Origin: Gemmatimonas phototrophica
GTDB taxonomy: Bacteria; Gemmatimonadota; Gemmatimonadetes; Gemmatimonadales; Gemmatimonadaceae
Length of the DNA stretch: 64,000 nucleotides
NCBI RefSeq assembly: GCF_000695095.2
Contig: NZ_CP011454.1
Span: 3,162,001-3,226,000, forward strand
Direction: 5' to 3'
Shown here: positions 6,012 to 63,571 of the stretch, piece after piece
Position numbering within the stretch: position 1 is the first letter of the stretch
Layout of the letters: every line of letters starts with the position of its first letter
Program-made: the position numbers and the translations under genes
The notes under the pieces: model-generated
What the model saw: the letters and a program-made list of their open reading frames with translations, nothing else
The model's database searches: none
What the model was told of the DNA's origin: nothing

Positions 6012-6065
6012 CCGGTTGAGGTCTGACGTCAGCGATCTCGGATCGGCGACGTGAGAGTCAGAGGG

Positions 6066-6346
6066 TGAGAGCGTTGGGACGATCGAGGTGCGATGGATAT
6101 CGAATGTGAGAGTGTCGAGATGACAGCGACGATGAGAGGTGCGAGCACTTCGGCCGCACGTATGTGCCCCGCACAGGCTCCGCAGAAAATGCGGTCAATC
6201 CCGCTTTCACCTCTGAGACGCCGCCGTTACCCCACGCCAGTGTAGGGCACATTGATGCGGAGGCAACTACTCGCACCTCTCATCGTCGTGGTCATCTCGA
6301 CACTCTCACATTCGATATCCATCGCAATTCGATAGTCCCAACGCTC
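6066..6346. repeat. Palindromic element family A, copy 1
   Basis: The region between the ABC exporter and the convergent lipoprotein gene contains long inverted arms. The stretch 6089-6123 (starting GCGATGGATATCGAATG) is exactly repeated in reverse complement at 6290-6324. Pairing resumes after two mismatches for another 19 bases (to GGTGCGAG), and extends outwards through a GAGCGTTGGGAC block. Three similar elements occur elsewhere in the window. GATCTGA-type short repeats lie just outside, next to the lipoprotein stop. No gene is visible in 6012-6396. Confidence 0.85.
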
Positions 6347-6396
6347 GCACATTCTCCCTCTCACATCGGGGGATCTGAGATCTCAGATCTCAGAAG

Positions 6397-17849: not shown

Positions 17850-18010
17850 GCTCCGCCATGGAAAAACTGAAAACTGAAAACTTGCACTGACGACTGAAAA
17901 CTCGAACTGAGAACTGAGTACTCCCCCGGGAGATCGCGAGCTGTCCCGGGGAGTTTTCAGTCGTCAGTCCAAGTATTCAGTGATCAGTTCGAGTTGTAAG
18001 TCGTCAGTCC
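17850..18010. repeat. Nested inverted repeats between hemD and hemC
   Basis: Short ACTGA/CTGAAAAC-type words recur throughout this spacer. The block 17886-17903 (ACTGACGACTGAAAACTC) is exactly inverted at 17951-17968. Inside lies a second, GC-rich inverted pair, ACTCCCCCGGGA facing TCCCGGGGAGT, with one base difference. It is 5' of hemC and 3' of hemD on the minus strand, so it could end the upstream transcript or act in the hemC leader. Confidence 0.7.
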
Positions 18011-23794: not shown

Positions 23795-23825
23795 CGACGT
23801 AGCAACTCACGACGCACAACTCGAA

Positions 23826-23861
23826 CGCAAAACCCGGAACTGATCAGTTCCGGGTTTTGCG
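23826..23861. terminator. Perfect 36-bp palindrome, bidirectional terminator
   Basis: An uninterrupted 18-bp arm (CGCAAAACCCGGAACTGA) is followed directly by its reverse complement, with A-run and T-run at the two ends. It sits between the convergent hypothetical gene and the DsbA-like gene, so it can end transcription in both directions. Confidence 0.85.
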
Positions 23862-23900
23862 TTTTGGTCGTGTATCGTGGGTTTCGTCGATGCGGTCCCC

Positions 23901-46082: not shown

Positions 46083-48824
<2,742 letters not shown>

Positions 48825-48829
48825 CGGTC

Positions 48830-48934
48830 GGTTCGCGCGAGACGGGTGGTTCGCGCGAGACGGGTGGTTCGCGCGAGACGGGTGGTTCGCGCGAGACGGG
48901 TGGTTCGCGCGAGACGGGTGGTTCGCGCGAGACG
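48830..48934. repeat. Tandem array of an 18-bp unit
   Basis: Five exact copies of GGTTCGCGCGAGACGGGT (48830-48919) and a sixth of 15 bases (48920-48934) start six bases after the acnA stop and run into the family B element. There are no spacers, so it is not a CRISPR. The unit length is a multiple of three; both strands stay open, but the resulting repetitive peptides do not look like a gene. Confidence 0.9.
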
Positions 48935-49045
48935 CCCCGAACGATTGAGGCCCCGGTCGCGAGTGCTCTTCGGGGGTGGCCGTGCGCATACGCGCCGGCG
49001 TCACCCCCTCAGGGACTCGCTCTCCGGGGCCTCAATCGTTCGGGG
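48935..49045 (+). repeat. Structured family B element, copy 1 (3' of acnA)
   Basis: A 22-bp perfect stem joins CCCCGAACGATTGAGGCCCC.. (48935-48956) with its complement at 49024-49045. Within it are smaller stems: GCGAGT/ACTCGC, GGGGGTG/CACCCCC, GCCG/CGGC and GCGC-ATAC-GCGC at the tip, with conserved unpaired TGCTCTTC on the left and TCAGGG on the right. The outer stem differs in sequence from the other two copies but keeps pairing. Downstream, 49046-49219 shows no gene. Confidence 0.85.
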
Positions 49046-49219
49046 CTGTTCTCTTGGCACGCGCACGCTCACGCGGGCGCCGACGACACCCCCTCGGAGG
49101 CCACTCGCCGAGCATACGACGCCGCCGGGGCTGGTTCGTAAAGGCTCGCACTTTTTCGGTCGTACGCGCATTGTAGTTTGTGAACATTTGCATTCTTGAG
49201 AATAAGGACGAATCACACT

Positions 49220-49564
49220 GTGCTTAAGCGACTGATAAGCCGGCCGAATTACGGCATACCGCTGCTTCGACACCCCGACGGATCGGTTGTGGCGCGAACG
49301 TGGTGGGGGGCATGGCGCAATTTTCGTATTCCCGCGGAACACGTCGCGAACGTCGAAGCCGACTTGCGTTTCGCGAGCGGATTGAACTGGTGGGTCACTA
49401 CGCTCCTGTTTATCGGCGTGCTGACGTGGGGCACTGAAGCCTTCCTGCTTCTGCTGCCGATCTCACTCGTTTCCACGGTGGTACAAGTGTGGTATCCAAT
49501 GCGGCGCGTAGGGCAATTTCCGGTAATCGAAATTGACCGCTCGTCGTTACGACCATACAACTGA
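49220..49564 (+). CDS. Small membrane protein, lower GC than its neighbours
   Basis: From GTG 49220 the protein has 114 residues: a basic N-terminus (LKRLISRPNYGIPLLRHPDG), then WWGAWRNFRIP, and two hydrophobic helices (about 58-75, GLNWWVTTLLFIGVLTWG, and 77-93, EAFLLLLPISLVSTVVQVW). I do not recognise a family. Its codon third positions are clearly less GC-rich than the surrounding genes, and it is bracketed by family B elements, so it may be of foreign origin. A TTG at 49196 is an alternative start. Confidence 0.5.
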   Translation: MLKRLISRPNYGIPLLRHPDGSVVARTWWGAWRNFRIPAEHVANVEADLRFASGLNWWVTTLLFIGVLTWGTEAFLLLLPISLVSTVVQVWYPMRRVGQFPVIEIDRSSLRPYN

Positions 49565-49660
49565 CCGCGCCCTTTAGTCATGACCGGGCAACAGGTATCG
49601 TCGCTACCACACTATGGAGCGAGAAGGGATTACAGAGGTACGCTAACGCCGGCTCGTGTC

Positions 49661-49767
49661 CCGAGCGCGAGAGGCCCCGGGGAGCGAGTCCCTGAGGGGG
49701 TGACGCCGGCGCGTATGCGCCCGGCCTCCCCCGAAGAGCACTCGCGACCGGGGCCTCACGCGCTCGG
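49661..49767 (-). repeat. Structured family B element, copy 2 (3' of peroxiredoxin)
   Basis: The outer stem CCGAGCGCG-A-GAGGCCCCGG (49661-49680) pairs with 49748-49767 with a single mismatch. Inner stems and loop sequences match copies 1 and 3. It lies 19 bases past the stop of the minus-strand peroxiredoxin gene, so in that transcript it has the same orientation as copy 1 has in acnA mRNA. Confidence 0.85.
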
Positions 49768-49785
49768 AACCCGATTGGGACCCGC

Positions 49786-50355
49786 TCAGGGCGCCGGACG
49801 CGCCCCCGCAGCCGCCTGAATGGCCGCACCAAGGTCGGTGTAGGCGGCTTCCGACATCTGATTGAACGGCCGCGCGATATACGCAATGCGCCCCGCCGGA
49901 TCGATCACGTACAGATGGCGCTTGTGCCACAACAGACCGCTGGCGCCGTAGGCTTTGCCCACCGCCTTGTTGCCGTCGGTGGCGAACCGGAAGGGGAATT
50001 TCTTCTTCTGCGACCACCCATACAGATCGCCGCTGTCGTCGGTACTGACGCCCACCAGCGTCACCTTGTTGCCGCCATTGAAGAGCGCCGCGTAGCGATC
50101 ACGATAGCTCTCCATTTGCGTCGTGCACCCGGGTGTCCCGGCCTGCGGGAAGAACGCCAGCACCACCACTTCGCCCTTGTGTGCAGAGAGCGTGAAGGGG
50201 GTGCGGTCCACGCCAATGGCCGACACCGTGGTCACACTGAAGTCCGGCGCCATATCGCCCACCTTGAGTGACTGGGCAGCGAGTGGCGAATCGGCAAACG
50301 GCGCGGTGGCCAGCGCCAGGGTCAAGGCAAACGGAGCGAAGGAGCGCAGCAACAC
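49786..50355 (-). CDS. Exported thioredoxin-fold peroxiredoxin, paralogue 1
   Basis: From GTG 50355 the protein has 189 residues with a signal peptide (LLRSFAPFALTLALATAPFA, then ADSPLAAQ). The mature part is a peroxiredoxin with the motif PQAGTPGC (PxxxTxxC), peroxidatic Cys 77, and no resolving Cys five residues on, so a 1-Cys-type or a mechanism with an external thiol. It should reduce peroxides in the periplasm. An upstream in-frame start at 50523 would translate the family B repeat and is rejected. Its closest relative here is the gene at 53588. It is flanked by two family B copies in direct orientation. Confidence 0.85.
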   Translation of the reverse strand: MLLRSFAPFALTLALATAPFADSPLAAQSLKVGDMAPDFSVTTVSAIGVDRTPFTLSAHKGEVVVLAFFPQAGTPGCTTQMESYRDRYAALFNGGNKVTLVGVSTDDSGDLYGWSQKKKFPFRFATDGNKAVGKAYGASGLLWHKRHLYVIDPAGRIAYIARPFNQMSEAAYTDLGAAIQAAAGARPAP

Positions 50356-50455
50356 GAATGGTCCGGGCGAGAGTGAGCATCGCGAGCTGGCGCTCGTACC
50401 CCATGAGCGAGCCAACCGATCCCGCTGTTCCCGGCAGGCACGAAACGGCGAAGCT

Positions 50456-50562
50456 CCGAACGTTGAAGGCCCCGGCGAGCGAGTCCCTGAGGGGGTGACG
50501 CCGGCGCGACAGCGCACGGCCACCCCCGAAGAGCACTCGCGACCGGGGCCTTCAACGTTCGG
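50456..50562 (-). repeat. Structured family B element, copy 3 (3' of Asp-rich lipoprotein)
   Basis: The outer stem CCGAACGTTGAAGGCCCCGG (50456-50475) is perfectly complementary to 50543-50562. Inner stems repeat those of copy 1, with tip loop GACA on the plus strand. It lies 34 bases beyond the stop of the minus-strand lipoprotein gene and upstream of the peroxiredoxin gene. Confidence 0.85.
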
Positions 50563-50596
50563 GGCGTCTCACGTCACACGCCCAAATGTCTGCCGA

Positions 50597-51505
50597 TCAG
50601 CGATCGTCGTCTTCCCCGTCACGGTCCTTGTCACGGAACGCGCGGAACGCGTTGCGGATGTTGTTCTGAATCTTGGCGCGCACGAAGCCCGGCGTGTTCC
50701 CCTCGGCCGGCGAGTACAACCCACCGTTCGGGCGCACGAACCAGTCCTTCATGTCGATTGTGACCGTCACATCGTCACCCCCCTCGCCAATCGTGATCGG
50801 CGCGGTCAACGGCACCTCCAGCTTCGCATTCACATCATGCGTGAACGTGAACGCCTGCCCGTTGTATGTCCCTTGCAGACGAATGCTGATGCCGCGGAAA
50901 TCCGGGTTGGCCTGACGGAACGCCAGATCGGCCGAATCACTGCTGGACACCTTGTGAATGGACAGCCGCACCGACGAATACGTCCCTTCCGGCACCATGA
51001 CGGCGACCCGGCCGCCGTCGGCGCCAGTGACCGGCACATCCACCAGATACGGACCGACCCGGATGGTGGGGCAGTCATCGTCATCGTCATCATCGTCGTC
51101 GCTCGACGATTGCTTGCTGCTTCCCGACTTTCCGTTCGACGACGACGCTGCCACCACGATGGACGATGAGCTGTTGTCATCATCATCGTCATCATCGGTG
51201 CAGGTGGCCGCTGCCGACTTGAGCTTCACATCCTTGACCACGATCTGCGCCTTGGAGATCAGAATCACGTCAGCGCCGCTGGTGATGCTGAACCCCGCCG
51301 GCGTGGTGGCAACCTGCGCCGACCCGGTCGTGTTGGCGGAACCGTCGGCCGACTGCACATTGGCCGAAGCCGACGTGGTGGCGAGCTGGAAGCCGACTCC
51401 GACTTGCGCGGACTTGTTGGGGCCTGTGCCCTCTCCGCACGCGGCAAGCAGCGCGGCGCCAGCGCACAGTGAGAACGACAGCGCCTGATTGGGCAAACGC
51501 ACCAT
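50597..51505 (-). CDS. Lipoprotein with poly-Asp/Ser low-complexity loop
   Basis: From ATG 51505 (GGAG ten bases upstream) the 302-residue protein has a signal with lipobox LLAAC. The mature part is beta-rich (VGVGFQLATTSASANVQ; ISKAQIVVKDVKLKS; GRVAVMVPEGTYSSVRLSI), resembling DUF4382-like carbohydrate-binding-type beta-sandwiches. A loop of about 45 residues, bounded by two cysteines, contains a run of seven Asp, a Ser-rich segment and a run of nine Asp. The C-terminus is also acidic (DKDRDGEDDDR). Calcium or other cation binding is plausible. Family is not certain. Confidence 0.65.
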   Translation of the reverse strand: MVRLPNQALSFSLCAGAALLAACGEGTGPNKSAQVGVGFQLATTSASANVQSADGSANTTGSAQVATTPAGFSITSGADVILISKAQIVVKDVKLKSAAATCTDDDDDDDNSSSSIVVAASSSNGKSGSSKQSSSDDDDDDDDDCPTIRVGPYLVDVPVTGADGGRVAVMVPEGTYSSVRLSIHKVSSSDSADLAFRQANPDFRGISIRLQGTYNGQAFTFTHDVNAKLEVPLTAPITIGEGGDDVTVTIDMKDWFVRPNGGLYSPAEGNTPGFVRAKIQNNIRNAFRAFRDKDRDGEDDDR

Positions 51506-56197: not shown

Positions 56198-56977
56198 ATG
56201 CCTGCCAAACGTTCTGCTCCCCGTTCGCCATCGGATGAGTCCGCCGTGGCGGTTCCACCGCCGCCAGCCCCCGACGTCGTCAGCGATCTCCCTCAGGCGA
56301 CCGACGCCTACCGCCGTCGTCCCCGGCAGTCCCGAGGGCAGGCCCGTGTTGAACTCCTGCTGGATGCCGCCGCCACGGTGATTGCCACCCAGGGGATTGA
56401 GGCGGCCACGGCAGAAGCCATTGCCCTGGAGGCCCGGACGGCCAAAGGCTCACTGTACCAGTTCTTTCCCAATCGTGATGCGGTGCTGGCGGCGCTGGCG
56501 CTCCGCTATGCCGACGAGATGCGGACCATTCACGAGCGGGCCTTTCCCATGGATTCCCACGGATTGCCGCTCGACCGTCTGATTGATCGCATCGTCAAAC
56601 CCCTGGCGGAGTTCCATGATCGGAACCCGGCCTTCCGCCGCGTGTTTGCCAGCCATGATGGCCCTGTAGACGACACCCGGTCAGCGCCTGCCCGCCTGCG
56701 CGCGCAGCTGTTCGATTCGTTCGTGGACCGCCTGGATGTGCTCTTTGCCAGCCGCAATCCCAAACTGCCCACCCGCGATCGCCGCCGCGCCGCGCTGGTG
56801 GCCGCCAGTGTGGGGCAGTCGCTGCTGGCGCGCCGGGCTCGTGCGCAGGCAGCAGACAAGAAACCGCTGCTCGATGACCTGCGGCGCCTGTTGCTCGCGT
56901 ATCTGGAGCCAATGTTGGAGCCGGCGCCGCCGCCGAAGGCCCGCGGGAAAAAGGCCCCGAACGGGCCGTTGCCATAA
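56198..56977 (+). CDS. TetR-family transcriptional regulator
   Basis: The 259-residue protein has an unusually long Pro/Ala/Ser-rich N-terminal tail (about 45 residues), then a TetR DNA-binding domain: RVELLLDAAATVIATQGIEAATAEAIALEARTAKGSLYQFFPNRDAVL, key segment AEAIALEARTAKGSLYQFF at about 75-93. The C-terminal helical ligand domain contains ASVGQSLLARRARA and ends in a basic tail. It could control the adjacent agmatine genes or itself; no ligand is indicated. Confidence 0.87.
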   Translation: MPAKRSAPRSPSDESAVAVPPPPAPDVVSDLPQATDAYRRRPRQSRGQARVELLLDAAATVIATQGIEAATAEAIALEARTAKGSLYQFFPNRDAVLAALALRYADEMRTIHERAFPMDSHGLPLDRLIDRIVKPLAEFHDRNPAFRRVFASHDGPVDDTRSAPARLRAQLFDSFVDRLDVLFASRNPKLPTRDRRRAALVAASVGQSLLARRARAQAADKKPLLDDLRRLLLAYLEPMLEPAPPPKARGKKAPNGPLP

Positions 56978-57003
56978 CCCGGAACCCGAAACCCGCATCC
57001 ACG

Positions 57004-57027
57004 ACCCGGAACGGATCCGTTTCGGGT
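57004..57027 (+). terminator. Palindromic terminator after the TetR gene
   Basis: ACCCGGAACGGA is followed directly by TCCGTTTCGGGT, complementary except one G-U pair in RNA. It lies 26 bases beyond the TetR stop; GTTTT-type T-rich sequence follows within 20 bases. Confidence 0.65.
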
Positions 57028-57089
57028 TGCGCGTGGGAGTTTTGGGTTGTGAGTTCACTCAGCCAGCCCAGTGGGCGCTGCATTTTCCT

Positions 57090-63216: not shown

Positions 63217-63254
63217 TGTCAGATGGCAGACTTCTGACCACCGAGGCGTGAATC

Positions 63255-63529
63255 AGAGGTGCGAGTATTGAGAGTTGAGAAGTGCGATGGATATCGAAGG
63301 TGAGAGTGTCGAGATAACCACGACAATCAGAGGTGCGAGTAGTTGCCTCCGCGCGGATGTGCCCCGCACTGGCGTGGAATAACGGCGGGGACGACCGCTG
63401 TTCCAGCGGCGTCCGTGTCCGGCACTCCCCGCGCGGACGAAGTGCTCGGACCTCGCATCGTCGTGGTTATCTCGACACTCTCACCCTCGATATCCATCGC
63501 ACAGCTCGACTCGCAACGCTCGCACCTCT
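63255..63529. repeat. Palindromic element family A, copy 4 (reverse orientation)
   Basis: The left arm GCGATGGATATCGAAGG starts at 63284 and the inverted right end closes at 63500; outer GAGGTGCGAG blocks lie at about 63256 and 63520. The asymmetric centre (CCGCTGTTCCAGCGG at about 63397) is the complement of that in copy 3, so this copy is inverted relative to the other three. GATCTCA repeats follow at about 63544-63562. It sits between the CBM48 operon and the convergent gene at 63572; no gene is visible in 63217-63571. Confidence 0.85.
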
Positions 63530-63571
63530 GACTCCCAACTCGGCGATCTCAGATCTCAGATCTCCCCGCGC

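Follow-up and report, generated by a model that had tools for sequence, protein, structure and literature searches.

Among described bacterial repeats, the closest counterparts of the hairpins analyzed here are the REP, BIME and REPIN elements. Dimers with outward-facing tags predominate among both GTAG and CGTC REPs, and the terminal tag of CGTC REPs has the variants TGTC and CCTC (PMC3733652). Compensatory changes in the stems of REPINs are common (PMC3116915), and template switching is a published mechanism able to yield compensated stems (PMC8794818). In Gemmatimonas phototrophica, 86 repeats have been counted outside a strand-biased region of the genome and 4 inside it (PMC11237797); that study counts repeats only, and its text makes no mention of palindromes or hairpins. 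Some of these repeats may be copies of the family described below.

The DNA analyzed here (the window) is a stretch of 64,000 nucleotides of the G. phototrophica chromosome (NZ_CP011454.1, positions 3,162,001 to 3,226,000). It holds three large hairpins, which belong to a family of large palindromic DNA repeats that has apparently not been described before. A reading made from the letters of the window (hereafter the sequence-only reading) knew of no described family with this sequence, and literature searches likewise returned no description of the Gemmatimonas hairpins. A search of Rfam gave nothing above the gathering score in the window, and the sub-threshold matches were to plant and viral miRNA precursors only. 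Such matches are expected of any long GC hairpin.

Table 1. Hairpins of the family and neighboring features in the window (copy 1 reads 5'-CTGAGGGGG...CCCCCGAAG-3' on its structured strand)
Feature	Positions	Strand	Remarks
Copy 1, full hairpin	48931..49044	(-), structured strand	Tag side toward acnA stop codon; R1 107.9 bits
Copy 1, core (inner stem, tandem G·A loop, AC bulge, tip)	48955..49020	(-)	R2 74.4 bits
Copy 1, end tag GGCGTCTCGCGCGAACC	48920..48936	(-)	1 mismatch vs consensus
18-nt tandem array (ACCCGTCTCGCGCGAACC), built of tag	48827..48935	(-)	Between acnA stop and copy 1
Spacer of inverted pair copy 1 + copy 2	49046..49659	.	Holds putative 122-aa ORF
Copy 2, full hairpin	49660..49773	(+)	Tag side toward peroxiredoxin stop; tag degenerate; R1 90.5 bits
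Copy 2, core	49684..49749	(+)	R2 68.5 bits
Copy 3, full hairpin, tandem to copy 2	50455..50568	(+)	Tag side toward stop codon of lipoprotein-like gene; R1 106.3 bits
Copy 3, core	50479..50544	(+)	R2 74.0 bits
acnA (aconitate hydratase-like)	46083..48824	(+)	Neighbor of copy 1
Peroxiredoxin-like gene	49786..50355	(-)	Neighbor of copy 2
Lipoprotein-like gene	50597..51505	(-)	Neighbor of copy 3

The sequence-only reading gave coordinates, stems, pairing and gene distances for the three hairpins, and these were confirmed (distances 18–110 nt). The stop codon is separated from the hairpin by 110 nt at acnA, by 18 nt at the peroxiredoxin gene and by 34 nt at the lipoprotein-like gene. The three outer stems that it quoted are also correct, position 10 being a T·T mismatch in copy 2. 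The MFE values of copies 1, 2 and 3 (-98, -86 and -91 kcal/mol) compare with shuffle means of -48 to -54, giving z scores of -12.7, -8.5 and -12.5. Because the copies are 85–91% identical in register, these three alone offer few compensated positions. The tag-derived array, which is six-fold, fills the DNA from the acnA stop codon to copy 1, and shorter tag repeats lie beside family copies at four other loci (L084, L085, L092 and L093). The window also contains two very long inverted repeats unrelated to the family, at 6047–6368 (arms 104 nt, 88% complementary) and 63221–63563 (arms 124 nt, 79% complementary). Palindromes of AACTGAA- and CCCGGAACTGA-type short repeats occur at 17865–18008, 23804–23883 and 56976–57055; they resemble ones found at acnA in one relative (G001) and at lipB in G. 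phototrophica.

Each unit is an imperfect palindrome of about 110–140 nt. On the way in from the foot, which is unpaired, conserved and ends in AGCC, there follow an outer stem, then an internal loop, then an inner stem, and then a tandem G·A internal loop (CTGAGG/CCGAAG), which belongs to the conserved core. Inward of the G·A loop are a GC stem with an AC bulge and a variable, self-complementary tip. The far end of the unit is an unpaired conserved tag, GGCGTCTCGCGCGCACC; CGTC, CGTG, CGCC and GGTC occur among its variants, and by eye CGTC is exact in about a quarter of the copies. The sequence of the outer stem is different at almost every locus. We call the strand that reads 5'-CTGAGGGGGTGACGCCGG...CGGCCACCCCCGAAG-3' the structured strand; the sequence-only reading folded its complement. 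The tips at several loci (L091, L092, L093, L094, L098, L099 and L100) carry a GGAGCGGAGCGACGGAG-like insert, which is apparently a small repeat in its own right.

The sequence-only reading had proposed a covariance model as a check. One built on 16 copies located about 23 distinct places in the G. phototrophica genome (4,716,552 bases, one contig) and copies in 14 of 29 other Gemmatimonas genomes, with E-values that are rough and with relatives represented mostly by draft metagenome assemblies. The same model had no matches in the other genera of the order that were searched. An exact core pattern, run against 84,980 species, matched only Gemmatimonas and Gemmatimonadaceae records and one metagenome bin labeled 'bacterium', which is a genome of the same genus (G018). 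The hairpin family is restricted to the genus Gemmatimonas. Phage, plasmid or viral origin was considered and rejected, as viral contigs, plasmids and phages were without matches.

Fourteen of the 23 copies in G. phototrophica form seven inverted pairs, six stand alone and three are clustered beside a pair. In the loci that we read, here and in relatives, all 23 inverted pairs have their tags (GGCGTCTCGCGCGCACC) outward, although the number of independent pairs is smaller because several loci are orthologous. The 48 non-redundant copies all lie clear of confidently called genes. Among these non-redundant copies, gene 3' ends lie within 200 nt on the tag side in 31 cases and on the foot side in 3, counts that are approximate, the genes having been called by a simple codon-usage program. 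The location at gene 3' ends and the constant orientation claimed in the sequence-only reading therefore hold for the wider family. That reading had named copies in coding regions, copies in both orientations equally and a lack of significant covariation as observations that would count against it; the copies are intergenic, their orientation is biased and covariation in the larger set is strong. Four of the 23 copies in G. phototrophica lie between divergent genes, and between tandem genes one member of an outward-tag pair faces the start of the next gene.

Pairs occupy the same place in several species at the photolyase, SNF2-helicase/TldD-like and acnA loci (gene names from sequence inspection). 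Such conservation of pairs at several orthologous loci would also fit a selected function. At acnA, the G. phototrophica outer stem has a sequence unrelated to those of G006 and G013, and each is paired. Four relatives (G006, G005, G016 and G013) have a separate GC-rich hairpin after the acnA stop codon and ahead of the element, with a clear T tail in G006, of which G009 and G018 are close relatives. The element is thus unlikely to be acnA's own terminator. The peroxiredoxin gene (49786–50355) is co-oriented with acnA in G006 and G013 (L087, L100) and inverted in G. phototrophica, as recombination between flanking inverted hairpins would yield.

In the relatives that we read, the regions upstream of parA and of lipB hold no copy of the family. 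Unrelated giant palindromes stand in the equivalent intergenic DNA of both regions, and at acnA in family-free lineages. Upstream of parA (L184–L194), each Gemmatimonas lineage has a different giant-palindrome family between two parS-like GTTTCACGTGAAAC sites; among the genomes read, only G. phototrophica has a family B pair (as we designate the present family) between these GTTTCACGTGAAAC sites. Two loci that lie about 14 kb from each other (L072:2614–2832 and L073:2424–2642) each have a tandem duplication of the right hairpin's 3' half; this duplication and the near-identical left hairpins at these loci suggest recent copying of a unit. Presence or absence at parA and lipB, taken with the near-identical left hairpins 14 kb apart, suggests that units have spread. 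The loci compared showed neither a clean empty site nor an excision junction or a target duplication; clean empty sites in which to look for target duplications are missing because relatives carry other palindromes there. The occurrence of unrelated giant palindromes at the same spots in different lineages makes Gemmatimonas a good genus in which to study how large hairpins originate, remain paired and are replaced.

We consider it probable that these hairpins are Gemmatimonas-specific, large REP-like palindromic DNA repeats, because outward-tag pairs, bias toward gene 3' ends, strand asymmetry, unpaired tags and compensated stems together match REP and REPIN. The sequence-only reading had kept a REP-like palindrome spread by a transposase as its main alternative to an RNA. 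The palindrome fits better than RNA; the expected transposase is missing from this genome. A DNA-processing enzyme, either of the HUH/Y1 type by analogy with REP/RAYT or of another kind, would read the structured strand, or would have read it, as a hairpin of single-stranded DNA. Such an enzyme would have spread the hairpin pairs, after which stepwise compensation and template-switch correction would have kept the stems palindromic. Hairpins near gene ends would have been tolerated or may serve as boundaries.

The explanation favored in the sequence-only reading was a functional structured RNA, and that reading took compensated change as a sign of selection on pairing. For the outer arms of 39 copies, the mean pairing score was 16.05 with a copy's own partner, 8.14 with the partners of other copies and 7.52 with shuffled partners. 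The own-partner value was reached in none of 10,000 permutations, a test that is conservative since the set contains at least two mis-anchored arms. The wider family therefore settles that the pairing is compensated. It does not support the step from there to a functional 3'-UTR RNA, as template switching can also produce compensation (PMC8794818). Strong covariation alone is no proof of a functional RNA; paired intergenic DNA palindromes give an equal signal.

If a hairpin folds as a single strand, G·T (G·U) should be tolerated above A·C on the strand that is used. In the outer stems of non-redundant copies, read on the structured strand, there were 59 G·T and 19 A·C mismatches; the p value of 6e-6 is nominal. 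Many of these mismatches share ancestry, and an estimate by hand gives roughly 27 versus 10 independent events. Counts of wobble pairs over the whole hairpin (G·T 96, A·C 105) were uninformative until the outer stem was split from the conserved loops, which are also the main source of an overall excess of A·G (266) over C·T (40). By this mismatch bias, the structured strand runs antisense to the gene that faces it with its 3' end. The sequence-only reading had folded the hairpins in transcript orientation; the bias favors the opposite strand, leaving a structure in the mRNA sense unsupported. The bias is equally compatible with RNA or single-stranded DNA.

A functional RNA could be a 3'-UTR element, or an antisense RNA running outward from the spacer of a pair, that is bound by protein through the G·A loops and controls mRNA stability or termination. 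The extensive compensation, the internal loops kept at orthologous loci, the constant orientation to gene 3' ends and the tolerance of G·U on one strand would all suit it. We nevertheless judge it unlikely. The favored strand is antisense to the neighboring gene, and another hairpin comes before the element at acnA in relatives. Where pairs lie between tandem genes, a member looks toward the start of a gene, and some copies lie between divergent genes. There is also no Rfam match above threshold and no sigma-70-like promoter was found in the region, and REP repeats have equal features without a proven RNA role. For the 3'-UTR role in particular, the inverted outward pairs, the acnA hairpin, the antisense strand bias and the compensation known from REPINs and template switching all count against the claim.

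We regard it as quite improbable that the hairpins are passive palindromes, made and re-perfected as inverted repeats by template switching during replication and copied by local duplication and recombination, with neither mobilizer nor function. The mechanism is published (PMC8794818), and other lineages carry unrelated giant palindromes at these positions. At three locus groups the G·A loop has become a perfect stem (TGA to TTC): the right photolyase hairpin in G018, G009 and G006, the L086/L095 locus and the L088 locus. One orthologous tip has a clustered change. These conversions and the clustered change are what template switching would do; a stepwise change, from G·T to A-T, is seen between L083 and L084. 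Correction alone, however, should erase the conserved mismatches, yet most copies retain them, and dispersed copies with a common core and tags, in uniformly outward pairs, are left unexplained.

It is very unlikely that the hairpins are large bidirectional transcription terminators or boundaries, with selection at gene 3' ends acting on the presence of a hairpin of any sequence. In 464 kb of this genome, strong palindromes are nearer the 3' end in six of six tandem cases and commoner in convergent than in divergent gaps, and many lineages have a long palindrome, of one family or another, after acnA. That palindrome sample is small, however, and at acnA the element already has a separate hairpin ahead of it (with a T tail in G006). 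Divergent genes flank 4 of the 23 copies in G. phototrophica, and termination would require neither the tags nor a conserved core with several loops.

Two further candidates were considered and set aside. That the hairpins are the ends of an autonomous transposon carrying this tag was rejected: all five tag matches in the genome (0–1 mismatch) fall in the region of family copies. Integron attC sites were rejected by inspection, which revealed no RYYYAAC/GTTRRRY ends. RAYT (the TnpA-REP transposase, PF01797) was found in five of the six genomes with at least eight copies (G005, G006, G009, G016 and G018) and was not found in that of G. phototrophica, the richest in copies; no family copies lie beside the RAYT genes of relatives. 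RAYT was therefore rejected as mobilizer: its pattern of presence is suggestive, but the gene is missing here and unlinked elsewhere. It is conceivable, if rather doubtful, that a strand-specific hairpin (RNA or single-stranded DNA) forms a new recognition fold on the tandem G·A loops and is served by a Gemmatimonas protein, which would either mobilize paired hairpins without RAYT or use them as marks of chromosome or transcription boundaries.

In layout, the family resembles REP, BIME and REPIN elements of the RAYT-associated GTAG superfamily: both are extragenic imperfect palindromes that form inverted dimers with tags outside, occur as singles, pairs and clusters, lie near the 3' ends of upstream genes and have compensated stem variants (PMC3733652, PMC3116915). 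Unpaired G·A residues are a further likeness, to some REPs (GTAG-24; PMC3733652, PMC3116915). CGTC-tagged REPs have a GTC-containing unpaired end in common with a minority of the copies, and they share with the family a predominance of outward dimers and no link to a transposase gene (PMC3733652). Their stem is 8–9 bp and their loop 4–5 nt (PMC3733652), whereas the hairpin described here is far longer and its tag varies. Described REPs measure 20–40 nt, compared with about 110–140 nt here, a three- to fivefold difference, and several internal loops and spacers of 60–700 nt further distinguish the present family. The tag is GGCGTCTCGCGCGCACC-like, the REP-type GTAG being absent, and G. phototrophica has no RAYT, whereas REP/REPIN systems have a cognate RAYT gene flanked by repeats. 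We keep the family out of REP/REPIN because tests of size, tag and RAYT linkage showed differences, its layout being REP-like. To the Gemmatimonadota it adds an apparently new repeat family whose units are several times the size of described REPs and have a richer structure, and in which the genome with the most copies is one from which the usual transposase is missing.
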